Shown: positions 9,597-15,458 of the stretch, one piece after another
How positions within the stretch are numbered: position 1 is the first letter of the stretch
Layout of the letters: the number at the start of each line of letters is the position of its first letter
From: Geobacillus icigianus
GTDB taxonomy: Bacteria; Bacillota; Bacilli; Bacillales; Anoxybacillaceae
Direction: 5' to 3'
Assembly: GCF_000750005.1 (NCBI RefSeq)
Contig: NZ_JPYA01000123.1
Span: 15,295-79,294, forward strand
DNA length: 64,000 nucleotides
Notes under the pieces: model-generated
The model's database searches: none
Told to the model about the DNA's origin: nothing
What the model saw: the letters and a program-made list of their open reading frames with translations, nothing else
Position numbers and translations under genes: made by a program

Positions 9597-9663
9597 CAAA
9601 CTTTTCTTTTGCCGAGAAGTTTGCTATTGTGAGAAGAGAGGCTAAGGGAGGTGAACGGGACGG

Positions 9664-9927
9664 ATGGAAGCGCCGATCGAATTATTCGTCTATATGTCGC
9701 TTGTCGGGGCATTGTGGATGATCGTAAAAGGGCATAAGGGCGTGCGTCGGAGAGCCGCTTCACTGTTTTGTGAGCCAATGTTGGCCTCTGTTCGCGAGCA
9801 AGGGGCGAATGGGAGCGCCATGGGCGCGGCGCTTCCATCGCGCCCGCTGTTTTTGCCGCGGCGGCGGAAAATCCCGATGCGGGAACAGGCCAGCCGAACG
9901 GATGAAGATGGAAGGCCCTCTCCTTGA
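9664..9927 (+). CDS. MifM-like leader / arrest-peptide candidate upstream of yidC2
   Basis: An 87-residue ORF with an ideal GGGAGGTGA ribosome binding site eight bases before the ATG. Residues 5-22 form one membrane segment followed by the basic stretch KGHKGVRRR. The middle is low in complexity. The C-terminus is LPRRRKIPMREQASRTDED followed by GRPSP. B. subtilis MifM, which senses YidC activity by ribosome stalling, has the same order: N-terminal membrane segment, Arg/hydrophobic arrest region (RKVFRM) and an acidic DEED cluster near the end. The last codons and the stop form the left arm of a hairpin that sequesters the yidC2 Shine-Dalgarno. The reading frame, RBS and hairpin are seen; the arrest function is inferred. 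Confidence 0.6.
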   Translation: MEAPIELFVYMSLVGALWMIVKGHKGVRRRAASLFCEPMLASVREQGANGSAMGAALPSRPLFLPRRRKIPMREQASRTDEDGRPSP

Positions 9928-9963
9928 TGAACGCGCATCATGTTTGGACAAGATCAAGGAGGG
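9916..9963 (+). promoter_or_regulatory. Hairpin masking the yidC2 Shine-Dalgarno
   Basis: CTCCTTGAT (9920-9928) is perfectly complementary to ATCAAGGAG (9953-9961), extendable with CCC(9916-9918)/GGG across a small bulge. The right arm contains the AAGGAGG ribosome binding site of yidC2 (9957-9963). The left arm lies in the last codons and stop of the upstream ORF. A ribosome paused at codons 80-83 would cover the left arm and free the site. Confidence 0.7.
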
Positions 9964-9969
9964 TTTTTT

Positions 9970-10719
9970 ATGAAGAAATGGATCATGATTTTATTGGGCG
10001 CTGTTTTGCTTCTTTCCGGTTGCAGCCGCAACGAACCGATCGACGAACATAGTCAAGGCATTTGGAACCATTATTTTGTCTACCCGATGTCGAAGCTTTT
10101 GTTGACGCTTGGCCATTGGTTTGGCGACAACTACGGCATCGCCATTATCGTGCTGACGCTTATCGTTCGCTTTTGCTTGCTGCCGCTCATTTTGAAGCAG
10201 TTTCGCGCCTCGCTCGCCATGCAAAAACTGCGTCCGGAATTGTTGAAGCTGCAAGAAAAATATAAAAGCAAAGATCCGGAAACGCAGCGCAAGCTCCAGC
10301 AAGAAATGATGCAGCTGTATCAAAAACACGGCGTCAACCCGGCGAGCGGCTGCCTGCCGGTGCTCATTCAAATGCCGATTTTTATGGCGCTTTATTATGC
10401 GATTTCGCGGACGCAGGCAATCAAAACCCATTCGTTTTTGTGGGTCGAACTCGGCCATCGCGATCCGTATTTCGTTTTGCCGGTATTGGCGGCGTTGACG
10501 ACGTTCATCTCACTCCGCCTGTCGCCATCGATGACCGAAGAACAACTGCCGCAAATGGCGATGATGTCATACATCATGCCGGTGATGATCTTTATCGGCG
10601 CCAGCTCCGTCCCATCGGCGCTGTCGCTCTATTGGGTCGTCGGGGGCTGCTTCTCGATCATTCAGTCGCTCCTTTTGCGCAGTCAGCTGAAAACGGCGAA
10701 AGCGGCGGAAAACAACTAG
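9970..10719 (+). CDS. misCB: Membrane protein insertase YidC2 (MisCB/OxaA2)
   Basis: Inserts and folds membrane proteins in the cytoplasmic membrane, alone or with SecYEG. The 249-residue protein starts with a lipoprotein signal peptide ending LLLSGC (Cys18). The Oxa1/Alb3/YidC core follows: membrane segments around residues 45-65, 130-150, 165-185 and 200-230, with a charged cytoplasmic loop (KYKSKDPETQRKLQ, then MMQLYQKHGVNP) and the typical GCLPVLIQMPIFMALYYAI. A conserved Arg lies in IVRFCLLP. The start is ATG 9970, because the upstream extension covers the regulatory hairpin. Translation is probably controlled by the upstream ORF and hairpin, as for B. subtilis yidC2 (yqjG). Confidence 0.93.
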   Translation: MKKWIMILLGAVLLLSGCSRNEPIDEHSQGIWNHYFVYPMSKLLLTLGHWFGDNYGIAIIVLTLIVRFCLLPLILKQFRASLAMQKLRPELLKLQEKYKSKDPETQRKLQQEMMQLYQKHGVNPASGCLPVLIQMPIFMALYYAISRTQAIKTHSFLWVELGHRDPYFVLPVLAALTTFISLRLSPSMTEEQLPQMAMMSYIMPVMIFIGASSVPSALSLYWVVGGCFSIIQSLLLRSQLKTAKAAENN

Positions 10720-13565: not shown

Positions 13566-15458
13566 TTATGAAGACAGCCGCCCTTTTAAGTTAGTCTCTT
13601 GCAGTGTGGACGGTTGCCGGTTTTGGCTTGACAGCTGCCGATCGAGTTCGTCAACGAGGAAGGCGAAATGGCGCAAGACGCGCTCGACCGGTTCGGGGCT
13701 TGTCATATCCACTCCGGCCCGCTTAAGCAGACGGATCGGGTCATCGGATGCGCCGGCGCGCAAAAATTGTTTGTACCGCTTTACCGCTTCGCCGCTTTGA
13801 TCGGTTTTGATAGCGCGCACAATGGCGTGCGAGGCCGCGAGCGAAGTGGCATATTTGTATACATAAAAGGCGTCGTAAAAATGCGGGATGCGCAGCCAGC
13901 CGCGCGCGGCGCCGGGATCGGCAGCGTACGCCGGGCCGTAATACGTTTTGAGCAGGCCAAGCCAAAGATCGTTCAATTCGTCCGCCGTGAGACTGCCGCC
14001 TTGGCGCACCTTGTCGTGAATCGTTCGCTCAAATTCAGAATACATCACTTGCGTGTACAATGTGCCGCGAATTTGCTCGATTTGTTCGATGAGCAGGCGG
14101 AGTTTTTCTTCTTTTGTTTTCGCCTGTTTGTACAAATAATCGAGCAGGAGCCATTCGTTCGCCGTTGATGCCACTTCCGCGGTGAAAATCGAATGGCCGG
14201 AATAATGGTACGGCTGCGTCTCGTTCGTGTACACGGAATGCATGGCGTGCCCAAGTTCGTGGGCCATCGTCAACACGCTGTCAAGCGAACCGTTGTAATT
14301 GAGCAAGATGAACGGATGGGTGTCATACGCTCCGGTGTTATAGCCGCCCGTATATTTTTTCGGGCGCGGGTAGACGTCCAACCATCGTTCTTGAAACGCG
14401 CGGTGCACGCGGCGAATATAGTCGGCACCGAGCGGCTTGAGCCCTTCCATGATGAGCGTCTTCGCCGTTTCAACAGGAATTGGCTTCATTGTTTCACTGA
14501 CAAGCGGTACGTACAAGTCATAGCTATGGACGCGGTCCAGCCCGAGCGCGCGCCGCCGCAGTTCGACATAGCGGTGAAGCGCCGGCAAGTGGCGGCGGGT
14601 GGCGGCGATCAAATGATCAAACACTTCCTTCGGTACGTCATCGGCGGCGAGGGCGGCGGCGAGGCCGGACGGATAGCGGCGCACGTTCGCATACAATTCA
14701 TCCGCTTTGACCGAAGCATACAGCGTCGCGGCGGCGGTTTGTTCCATGGCTTCATAGCTTTTGGCTTTCGCTTCAAACGCTGCTTTTCGATAGCGGCGGT
14801 CCGAGTGTTCAAGCATGGCGGCGTATTGGTCGTCGGTCAATGTCACCGTTTTTCCGTTCGGCATCTTGACAGACGGCGGCTCATAATCGCCGCGGGCGGC
14901 GTGGTCATAAATGTTCTCCGCTTCCCCGAGCGCCGGCGATAGTTTCGCGAGCAGCTGCTCTTCGCGTTTCGTGAGCGTATGCGGTTTTTGTTCGCACAAC
15001 TCATGGAAGTAATAGCGGTACGCCTTCAGCGGCTCGCTTGTTTGCAGCTTTCTGAGCGTTCGCTCCGGGAGGGCGAGCAGCTCTGGCTCGATAAACGCTG
15101 TTTTCGCCGCATAGTGGGCGGCGAGCGCTTCCACTTTTGCCCCGAGCCGCGCGGCCGTCTTGTCTTCGATGTTCAAGTCGCGTTTTAAATGGGCGTAAAG
15201 CGACAGTTTTTCGAGCTTGCGGGCCGTTTGTTCGTTGAGGGCGAACAGTTGGGCGATCGTCTTGGCATCGTCAAGCTTCCCTGCAAACGCCGCCAGTTTC
15301 GGCAAGGCGTTTTGCACCGCCTGATAGTCGCGCATCCACTCGTGCTCGGATGGGTAAATGTCAGCTACATTCCATTCGTATGCGGTTTCGGCGGCCGATG
15401 TCGGCCATGGGGAGGTTAAAAGAAGCCCGGCAGCGAGCCCAAGGAGCCAGCGCTTCAT
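13566..15458 (-). CDS. pepF: Exported oligoendopeptidase F (M3 family zinc peptidase)
   Basis: A zinc metallopeptidase that cleaves medium-length peptides. 630 residues from ATG 15456-15458; the open frame extends further upstream but the true N-terminus is MKRWLLGLAAGLLLTSPWP followed by TSAAE, a clear signal peptide. This is unlike the cytosolic PepF of B. subtilis. The catalytic motif is MAHELGHAMHS (HExxH), with a downstream Glu in FTAEVASTANEW as third ligand. It is probably extracellular or wall-associated and used for peptide feeding. It is divergent from the aldo/keto reductase gene, with 87 bp between them. Confidence 0.92.
   Translation of the reverse strand: MKRWLLGLAAGLLLTSPWPTSAAETAYEWNVADIYPSEHEWMRDYQAVQNALPKLAAFAGKLDDAKTIAQLFALNEQTARKLEKLSLYAHLKRDLNIEDKTAARLGAKVEALAAHYAAKTAFIEPELLALPERTLRKLQTSEPLKAYRYYFHELCEQKPHTLTKREEQLLAKLSPALGEAENIYDHAARGDYEPPSVKMPNGKTVTLTDDQYAAMLEHSDRRYRKAAFEAKAKSYEAMEQTAAATLYASVKADELYANVRRYPSGLAAALAADDVPKEVFDHLIAATRRHLPALHRYVELRRRALGLDRVHSYDLYVPLVSETMKPIPVETAKTLIMEGLKPLGADYIRRVHRAFQERWLDVYPRPKKYTGGYNTGAYDTHPFILLNYNGSLDSVLTMAHELGHAMHSVYTNETQPYHYSGHSIFTAEVASTANEWLLLDYLYKQAKTKEEKLRLLIEQIEQIRGTLYTQVMYSEFERTIHDKVRQGGSLTADELNDLWLGLLKTYYGPAYAADPGAARGWLRIPHFYDAFYVYKYATSLAASHAIVRAIKTDQSGEAVKRYKQFLRAGASDDPIRLLKRAGVDMTSPEPVERVLRHFAFLVDELDRQLSSQNRQPSTLQETNLKGRLSS

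Follow-up and report, generated by a model that had tools for sequence, protein, structure and literature searches.

The closest described system is MifM (YqzJ) of Bacillus subtilis, which is encoded directly before the second yidC (yidC2/yqjG), has about 90 aa and arrests translation at codons 89-92 (PMC4423224; PMC6037786). Here, we studied a window of 64,000 nt from Geobacillus icigianus (i.e., the whole stretch of DNA that was analysed; positions 15,295 to 79,294 of contig NZ_JPYA01000123.1), in which a short leader open reading frame (ORF) lies directly upstream of the second yidC on the same strand, with 42 bases between its end and the yidC2 start codon. Respective features are provided in Table 1. 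We interpret the 87-codon ORF as a substrate that monitors YidC in the way of B. subtilis MifM and assign a probability of roughly 0.86 to this reading. It is well supported by the conservation and position of the ORF, the spacing between helix and acids, the charge topology, the hairpin and the ribosome-position calculation.

The leader of the window shares with MifM the length of about 90 aa before a second yidC, one N-out/C-in helix (predicted for the window), an acidic cluster near the end, and a hairpin over the yidC2 Shine-Dalgarno (SD) sequence that is calculated to open when the P-site is on the acids. The helix-to-acid spacing of class III, i.e., the class of the window, has a median of 57 (range 49-59, n=54), which is near the MifM median of 54 (PMC10987492). 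The two differ in that the window has three acids (DED, D80-D82) where MifM has four (DEED, residues 86-89), in RK[IV]P in place of the Trp and Met-Asn elements, in a GGA-AGG codon pair after the acids, and in a YidC2 that, unlike the target of MifM, lies outside the YqjG clade.

Two further systems are comparable in design. CliM (uC_KYxIW) from Clostridia is a YidC-monitoring arrest peptide upstream of yidC with a hairpin, as proposed for the window, but it belongs to another lineage, uses a K-[YW]-x-I-W motif and is described as stalling in a way that does not rest on an acid cluster (PMC13183943). In actinobacteria, the arrest-peptide ORF ApcA lies before yidC2 and starts with a membrane segment, like the putative one of the window, but has an R-A-P-G arrest sequence, which the window's ORF lacks (PMC7897499). 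Neither the K-[YW]-x-I-W motif nor a RAPP-type R-[AG]-P-[PG] near the C-terminus is present in the 87 residues.

A survey from 2024 of more than 30,000 GTDB genomes kept 572 MifM-like Firmicutes sequences based on clustering and local charge (PMC10987492). The window's ORF would pass its charge filter, since the five residues T79-G83 have a net charge of -3, and shows the helix plus soluble part required by the survey; it may already sit, unnamed, in this 572-member cluster. The main text of the survey does not name Geobacillus, Parageobacillus or Anoxybacillus. Among the literature on Geobacillus arrest peptides or YidC and on Bacillales MifM homologues, no title or beginning of an abstract describes the system or its motif.

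Table 1. Features of the leader-yidC2 locus, given in positions of the window.
Feature	Position	Strand	Basis or detail
Candidate promoter-like block, TTTTCT ... TGCTATTGT, extended -10-like	9602-9630	+	alignment by eye
Shine-Dalgarno of the small ORF	9644-9654	+	sequence AAGGGAGGTGA
Putative arrest-peptide ORF (MifM-like monitoring substrate)	9664-9927	+	87 aa, ATG start; 14/14 genus genomes
Predicted single N-out/C-in membrane helix, residues about 5-21	9676-9726	+	hydropathy and flanking charge
R66-P71, RK[IV]P core of the putative arrest motif	9859-9876	+	K[IVRKT]P counts
D80-E81-D82 acidic triad, predicted stall P-site	9901-9909	+	invariance in genus and Shine-Dalgarno opening calculation
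Left hairpin arm hiding the yidC2 Shine-Dalgarno, core 9916-9928	9908-9928	+	fold and arm-pairing calculations
GGA AGG codons directly following the triad (AGG is rare, GGAAGG resembles a Shine-Dalgarno)	9910-9915	+	codon counts, 37 loci
Right hairpin arm, including the yidC2 Shine-Dalgarno AAGGAGG (9956-9962) and most of the start codon	9953-9971	+	fold and arm-pairing calculations
yidC2, second YidC/Oxa1/Alb3 insertase, lipoprotein-like N-terminus, outside the YqjG clade	9970-10719	+	PF02096 E 4.5e-56; tree

The leader ORF, its motif and its conservation

A first-pass annotation of this DNA had described an ORF with a good ribosome binding site and one membrane helix. Both are borne out by the SD sequence and the predicted helix listed in Table 1. 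The ORF has a single hydrophobic stretch (mean Kyte-Doolittle value 2.0), from which, together with charge only, the helix and its orientation are predicted; the net charge is lower before than after the helix in all class III sequences counted (54/54). Pfam and NCBIfam give no match for the ORF at E 10, and a profile of 24 leader ORFs finds no relative among solved structures (best E 1.4). The promoter-like block is located between a TPR gene and the small ORF and is kept in most genus rows when aligned by eye, in an alignment that also includes one spurious antisense row (L004). A consensus scan found no promoter. In the same by-eye alignment, locus L008 carries a different upstream sequence at this position.

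The leader ORF is present in each of the 14 genus genomes, the window's own included, and is under protein-level purifying selection. Over codons 1-84 of the 13 distinct genus sequences, dN/dS is 0.32, and the values by section are 0.17 (codons 1-24), 0.47 (codons 25-57) and 0.23 (codons 58-84). Within the family, 39 of 41 genomes have a close YidC2 match, and a leader ORF is found at all of these loci (39/39). The remaining two are G006, where the leader is kept and yidC2 is broken, and G022, which is without a second YidC match.

Next to the helix, the annotation had pointed to an Arg-rich RRRKIPM followed by DED in the C-terminus, and the translation indeed reads R66-R67-R68-K69-I70-P71-M72 and then D80-E81-D82. 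The other 13 genus sequences carry Gln in place of R66, which makes the Arg run of the window longer than usual. The stretch DEDGR shows zero amino acid changes among the 13 distinct genus sequences. Typical for the window's family is RK[IV]P followed by DE[DE]G[RS], with QRKIP-x-RERS-x-x-SDEEGR as the typical C-terminus; E2, Y10, K69, P71, D80 and G83 (window numbering) are invariant in 17 aligned family sequences. The peptide beyond the acid motif varies in length and sequence, while the acid motif keeps a fixed position before the left hairpin arm. For the wider set, we counted K[IVRKT]P at most 14 residues before the acid cluster, which is found in 54/54 class III leaders vs. 0/32 YqjG-linked leaders (excluding one class III and four YqjG-type rows that are without the acid motif).

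A search of 299 genomes with the leader profile yields 43 matches. For 39 of them, the fetched locus includes a YidC; the others are the broken G006 locus and three weak matches, which were set aside. Several of these hits are not independent of the profile, since it already contains the same or a near-identical sequence, for instance for G113, G142, G233 and the family members among the hits. Likewise, class III loci from outside the window's family mostly entered the set via a hit of the leader profile, such that the presence of the leader there is no independent evidence; L068, L069, L080 and the family loci were fetched by YidC.

Some loci deserve separate mention. In the G006 locus (L109; G006:C1:1512500-1515000), the leader ORF (92% identical) and the hairpin are kept, while yidC2 starts at locus base 799 and is interrupted after about eight codons; an element ORF (963-1865) of the OrfB_IS605 transposase family (E 1.9e-36) comes next. 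Only a SpoIIIJ-like YidC match is left in this genome, i.e., G006 has naturally lost the target and retained the proposed sensor. L119 and L125 (G020:C25) form a second, decaying leader-yidC2 pair with one TGA inside the leader match and two yidC2 pieces. In L035, L040 and L118, the leader ORF extends past the yidC2 start (123-130 aa in the script's reading), with the acid motif at its usual position.

Hairpin over the yidC2 Shine-Dalgarno and calculated ribosome positions

We evaluated the complementarity between the last leader codons and the yidC2 SD that the annotation had reported for 9916-9928 and 9953-9963. It is present, and the predicted stem is longer than first stated, since 9908-9918 and 9921-9927 pair with 9954-9971, including the yidC2 start codon at 9970. 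The total folding energy of the 101-nt region is no better than that of dinucleotide shuffles (z -0.31; 73/200 as good). The specific pairing with the SD is more than chance: dinucleotide-shuffled left arms pair as well with the SD region in only 6/2000 cases for the window and in 28/7400 cases over 37 related loci. These 37 are distinct loci that were chosen by a motif combining RK[IV]P with a final acid-G-[RS], such that its presence among them is by selection; L118 is outside the set.

The stem sequences of the three lineages within this set differ, namely GGAAGGCCC with GGGCTTTTC in Geobacillus, GAGACCTC with GAGGTCTC in Parageobacillus, and CTCCTTGTTTG with CAAACAAGGAG in Anoxybacillus. 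We also provide energies for swapped arms. Over the 37 loci, the mean arm-pairing energy is -22.0 kcal/mol for cognate arms, -14.6 kcal/mol when arms are swapped between the lineages and -20.4 kcal/mol when swapped within lineages. The cognate pair beats every between-lineage pair in 20/37 loci. Both the ORF and the hairpin are kept in relatives, and a lack of such conservation, which the annotation had named as grounds for giving up its reading, is not what we find.

To relate the hairpin to ribosome positions, we computed the openness of the yidC2 SD with a modelled ribosome, which holds the RNA unpaired as far as 15 nt downstream of the first nucleotide in the P-site. At 37 C, the SD of the window has an openness of 0.011 both when free and with a ribosome ten codons upstream of D80. 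With the P-site on D80 and E81, the values are 0.003 and 0.072, respectively, and they rise to 0.604 for D82 and 0.61 for G83 and R84. For related loci, the mean openness with the ribosome at the third acid codon is 0.38-0.47 at 37 C depending on the lineage, which is lower than for the window.

As a positive control, the same script was applied to four mifM-yidC2 loci of the B. subtilis group. The closest one (L148, with a leader 97% identical to B. subtilis MifM) shows values of 0.06, 0.06, 0.38, 0.81 and 0.88 at codons 86-90. That is, the calculation recovers the known MifM stall position, with opening at codons 88-89 and arrest from codon 89. For the more distant control L152, the openness reaches only 0.38. 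SpoIIIJ-type yidC loci served as a negative control and have open SD sites; the median openness is 0.51 for these loci (n=28), 0.07 for class III (n=56) and 0.05 for the YqjG type (n=41); a leader ORF of such kind is found in 0/29 SpoIIIJ-type loci.

A hairpin of this kind could also act by itself, namely as an RNA thermometer or as a transcription attenuator in which the stem and TTTTTT sense temperature or terminate transcription and the ORF is incidental. Geobacillus are thermophiles, and six T indeed follow the stem (9964-9969). Against this, the T-run is not kept in relatives (GGGCTTTTC, GGTCTCTT, GGAGGATC), and the openness of the window's free SD is nearly constant between 37 and 65 C (0.011 vs. 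0.017). At 60 C, it is 0.014 for the free SD and 0.719 with the P-site on D82. Given in addition that the ORF is under protein-level selection and that the best match in Rfam scores 15.2 bits, far short of the gathering score of 37 bits, we consider this explanation extremely improbable.

Since the hairpin covers the last codons and the stop of the leader, any ribosome ending there would open it. The gene pair might therefore be plainly coupled in translation, i.e., ribosomes translating or terminating on a membrane mini-protein (or on any leader) would melt the hairpin without programmed arrest or YidC sensing. The three loci with an ORF that extends past the yidC2 start would fit such coupling as well. 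It leaves unexplained why the acid motif keeps its place ahead of the left arm when the sequence that follows is variable, why the helix-to-acid spacing is narrow and why the amino acids of the C-terminus are constrained, so that we rate plain coupling as improbable.

A further feature of the region is the GGA-AGG codon pair. The Gly after the triad is encoded by GGA in 37/37 loci and the next residue, if Arg, by AGG in 34/34; the other three loci have Ser (AGT or AGC) after GGA. Upstream in the same reading frames, AGG makes up 7/300 Arg codons and GGA 28/112 Gly codons, and within the long ORFs of the window the respective portions are 3.5% of Arg and 19% of Gly codons. While the pair is inside the hairpin in Geobacillus, it precedes the conserved CTCCTTG stem in Anoxybacillus, such that this stem alone does not explain it.

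Such codon usage would be expected if the rare AGG and the GGAAGG purine run, i.e., a codon- or anti-Shine-Dalgarno-driven pause, were the main stalling force rather than the nascent chain. We regard this as very improbable. It accounts neither for the conserved acids nor for RK[IV]P and the membrane helix, and the pair is absent from the Sutcliffiella/Priestia-type relatives inspected. Furthermore, GGAAGG is also part of the hairpin stem in Geobacillus, which may suffice for its conservation there.

Relation to MifM and YidC phylogeny

The MifM arrest region quoted in the annotation (RKVFRM...DEED) is correct (PDB 3j9w). Its claim that the leader is a diverged MifM depends on the level of comparison. 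When the leader profile of the window's family is compared directly with that of B. subtilis-group MifM, the match lacks significance (E 0.067, probability 0.8%). The Sutcliffiella/Priestia leader group matches the window's group end to end (E 1.2e-8), but offers no usable link, since its leaders alone vs. MifM show E 0.0035 over 14 columns. At the superfamily level, the claim holds up: when profiles are built from many Bacillales families, class III and YqjG-linked leaders match with E 2.1e-8, and 0/240 column-shuffle controls (shuffled inside windows of 4, 6, 8 and 12) are as good (best control 1.3e-7). For the window's family alone (31 rows) vs. the YqjG-linked leaders, we find E 7.3e-5, with 0/60 shuffles as high.

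The comparison comprises 55/57 class III and 36/42 YqjG-type loci with long tails trimmed. It leaves out L039 and L042, for which the script gave a wrong frame or none (a leader ORF is visible otherwise), L189 (another gene) and the YqjG-type loci L166, L170, L171, L173 and L177, which have no ORF by the criteria used; the L021 leader was entered by hand. Controls based on single sequences show a smaller margin, i.e., window-8 shuffles are as good in 84/1100 cases (YqjG profile on class III) and in 107/720 cases for the reverse, such that part of the leader signal is shared architecture. With this share taken into account, the profiles support a common descent of class III and YqjG-linked leaders. 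The YqjG-type leaders (L159-L190) are very diverse across Bacillales families, and five of the loci are without a leader by the criteria used.

The motifs of the two groups are distinct. W[ILFMVT] before the acids is present in 1/54 class III vs. 24/32 YqjG-linked leaders, and M[NK] in 2/54 vs. 8/32; R[IL]xx[WF][IVLF] is found in 8/54 and 6/32, respectively. The pattern of MifM arrest residues (R69, I70, W73, I74, M80, N81) is not characteristic of the window's class. Among 299 genomes, a MifM sequence search finds seven of one genus strongly and four weakly. A degenerate DNA pattern for RMNSPVNDEED has matches in 0/299 genomes, which says little because even the closest genome reads DDED. B. 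subtilis MifM itself has no Pfam match and one chance-level NCBIfam match (E 0.069, far under the cut-off).

We do not file the leader as MifM proper, since it lacks the arrest residues and a significant direct match and its target lies outside the YqjG clade. The annotation had also suggested a new class of arrest peptide. The motif is distinct (RK[IV]P, without Trp or Met-Asn), but a subclass of a known kind describes it better.

The genome encodes one other YidC, on contig C10 (G000:C10), which is preceded by rnpA as in SpoIIIJ loci (L208). In a YidC tree of 95 proteins (from 131 rows after thinning of near-copies), the YqjG type (40 rows) is split off by a branch with 100/99 support, with the window's YidC2 on the other side. 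Another 100/99 branch holds the SpoIIIJ type (24 rows and three unlabelled rows nested in it). The class III YidC2 proteins (28 rows, window included) are outside both types and are not resolved as one clade. When the tree is rooted with an outgroup, which is too distant, the deep forks have bootstrap values of 1-39, and we thus make no claim on which YidC group is nearest.

A YqjG-type match (E 7.6e-58 or better) is present in 137 of the order's 299 genomes and a class III leader in 38, and none has both. The two genome lists were copied by hand, and three genomes were removed from the 41 leader hits, namely G142, which is of the YqjG type and had contributed its own sequence to the profile, and G163 and G204, which are weak partial hits. 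The naive probability of zero overlap is 8e-12, which is too small since the genomes are related. The zero overlap fits one YidC2 role that is filled by either YidC2 type. An independent origin of the window's YidC2 and leader relative to YqjG and MifM has lost ground, given that broad profiles link the leaders and that the genomes do not overlap.

Proposed mechanism and its meaning

The ORF with its conservation and selection, the pairing of the hairpin and the calculated opening at D82 are shown here. Regarding the YidC-monitoring substrate, we infer arrest, its release by insertion, the feedback on yidC2 and the dependence on YidC. The predicted N-terminal helix would be an N-out/C-in client of YidC. 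If YidC capacity falls short, the nascent chain would not be pulled, and the RK[IV]P region together with the DED triad would contact the ribosome and stall it with D82 (or one of the next codons) in the P-site. The stalled ribosome would cover the left arm and keep the yidC2 SD open, so that the second insertase would be made. If insertion works, the stall would be released, the hairpin would reform and yidC2 would be shut.

A broader scenario joins several of these observations. That is, the leaders of Geobacillus, Anoxybacillus, Sutcliffiella and Priestia might form a second MifM subclass with other ribosome contacts (Arg-Lys-Ile-Pro for Trp and Met-Asn, plus the acid triad). In Anoxybacillaceae, the stall might be reinforced at the RNA level by the invariant GGA-AGG at and after the stall site, with nascent-chain and codon pausing acting together, and the peptide might have co-diverged with a YidC2 standing in for YqjG. 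We put this forward tentatively and deem the scenario as a whole rather unlikely, if well short of improbable.

The GGA-AGG pair makes it possible to test directly if a natural arrest peptide is supported by codon or anti-Shine-Dalgarno pausing. Bacillus subtilis is known to use the same design; what differs in the Geobacillus leader is the putative arrest motif. If our reading is true, the window holds a thermophile YidC sensor with another arrest motif, which would be useful to learn which nascent-chain contacts stalling needs and how an arrest sequence may drift while its job is kept. The comparison also suggests that a single leader-peptide lineage diverged alongside two YidC2 types, which were never found together in the sampled genomes.
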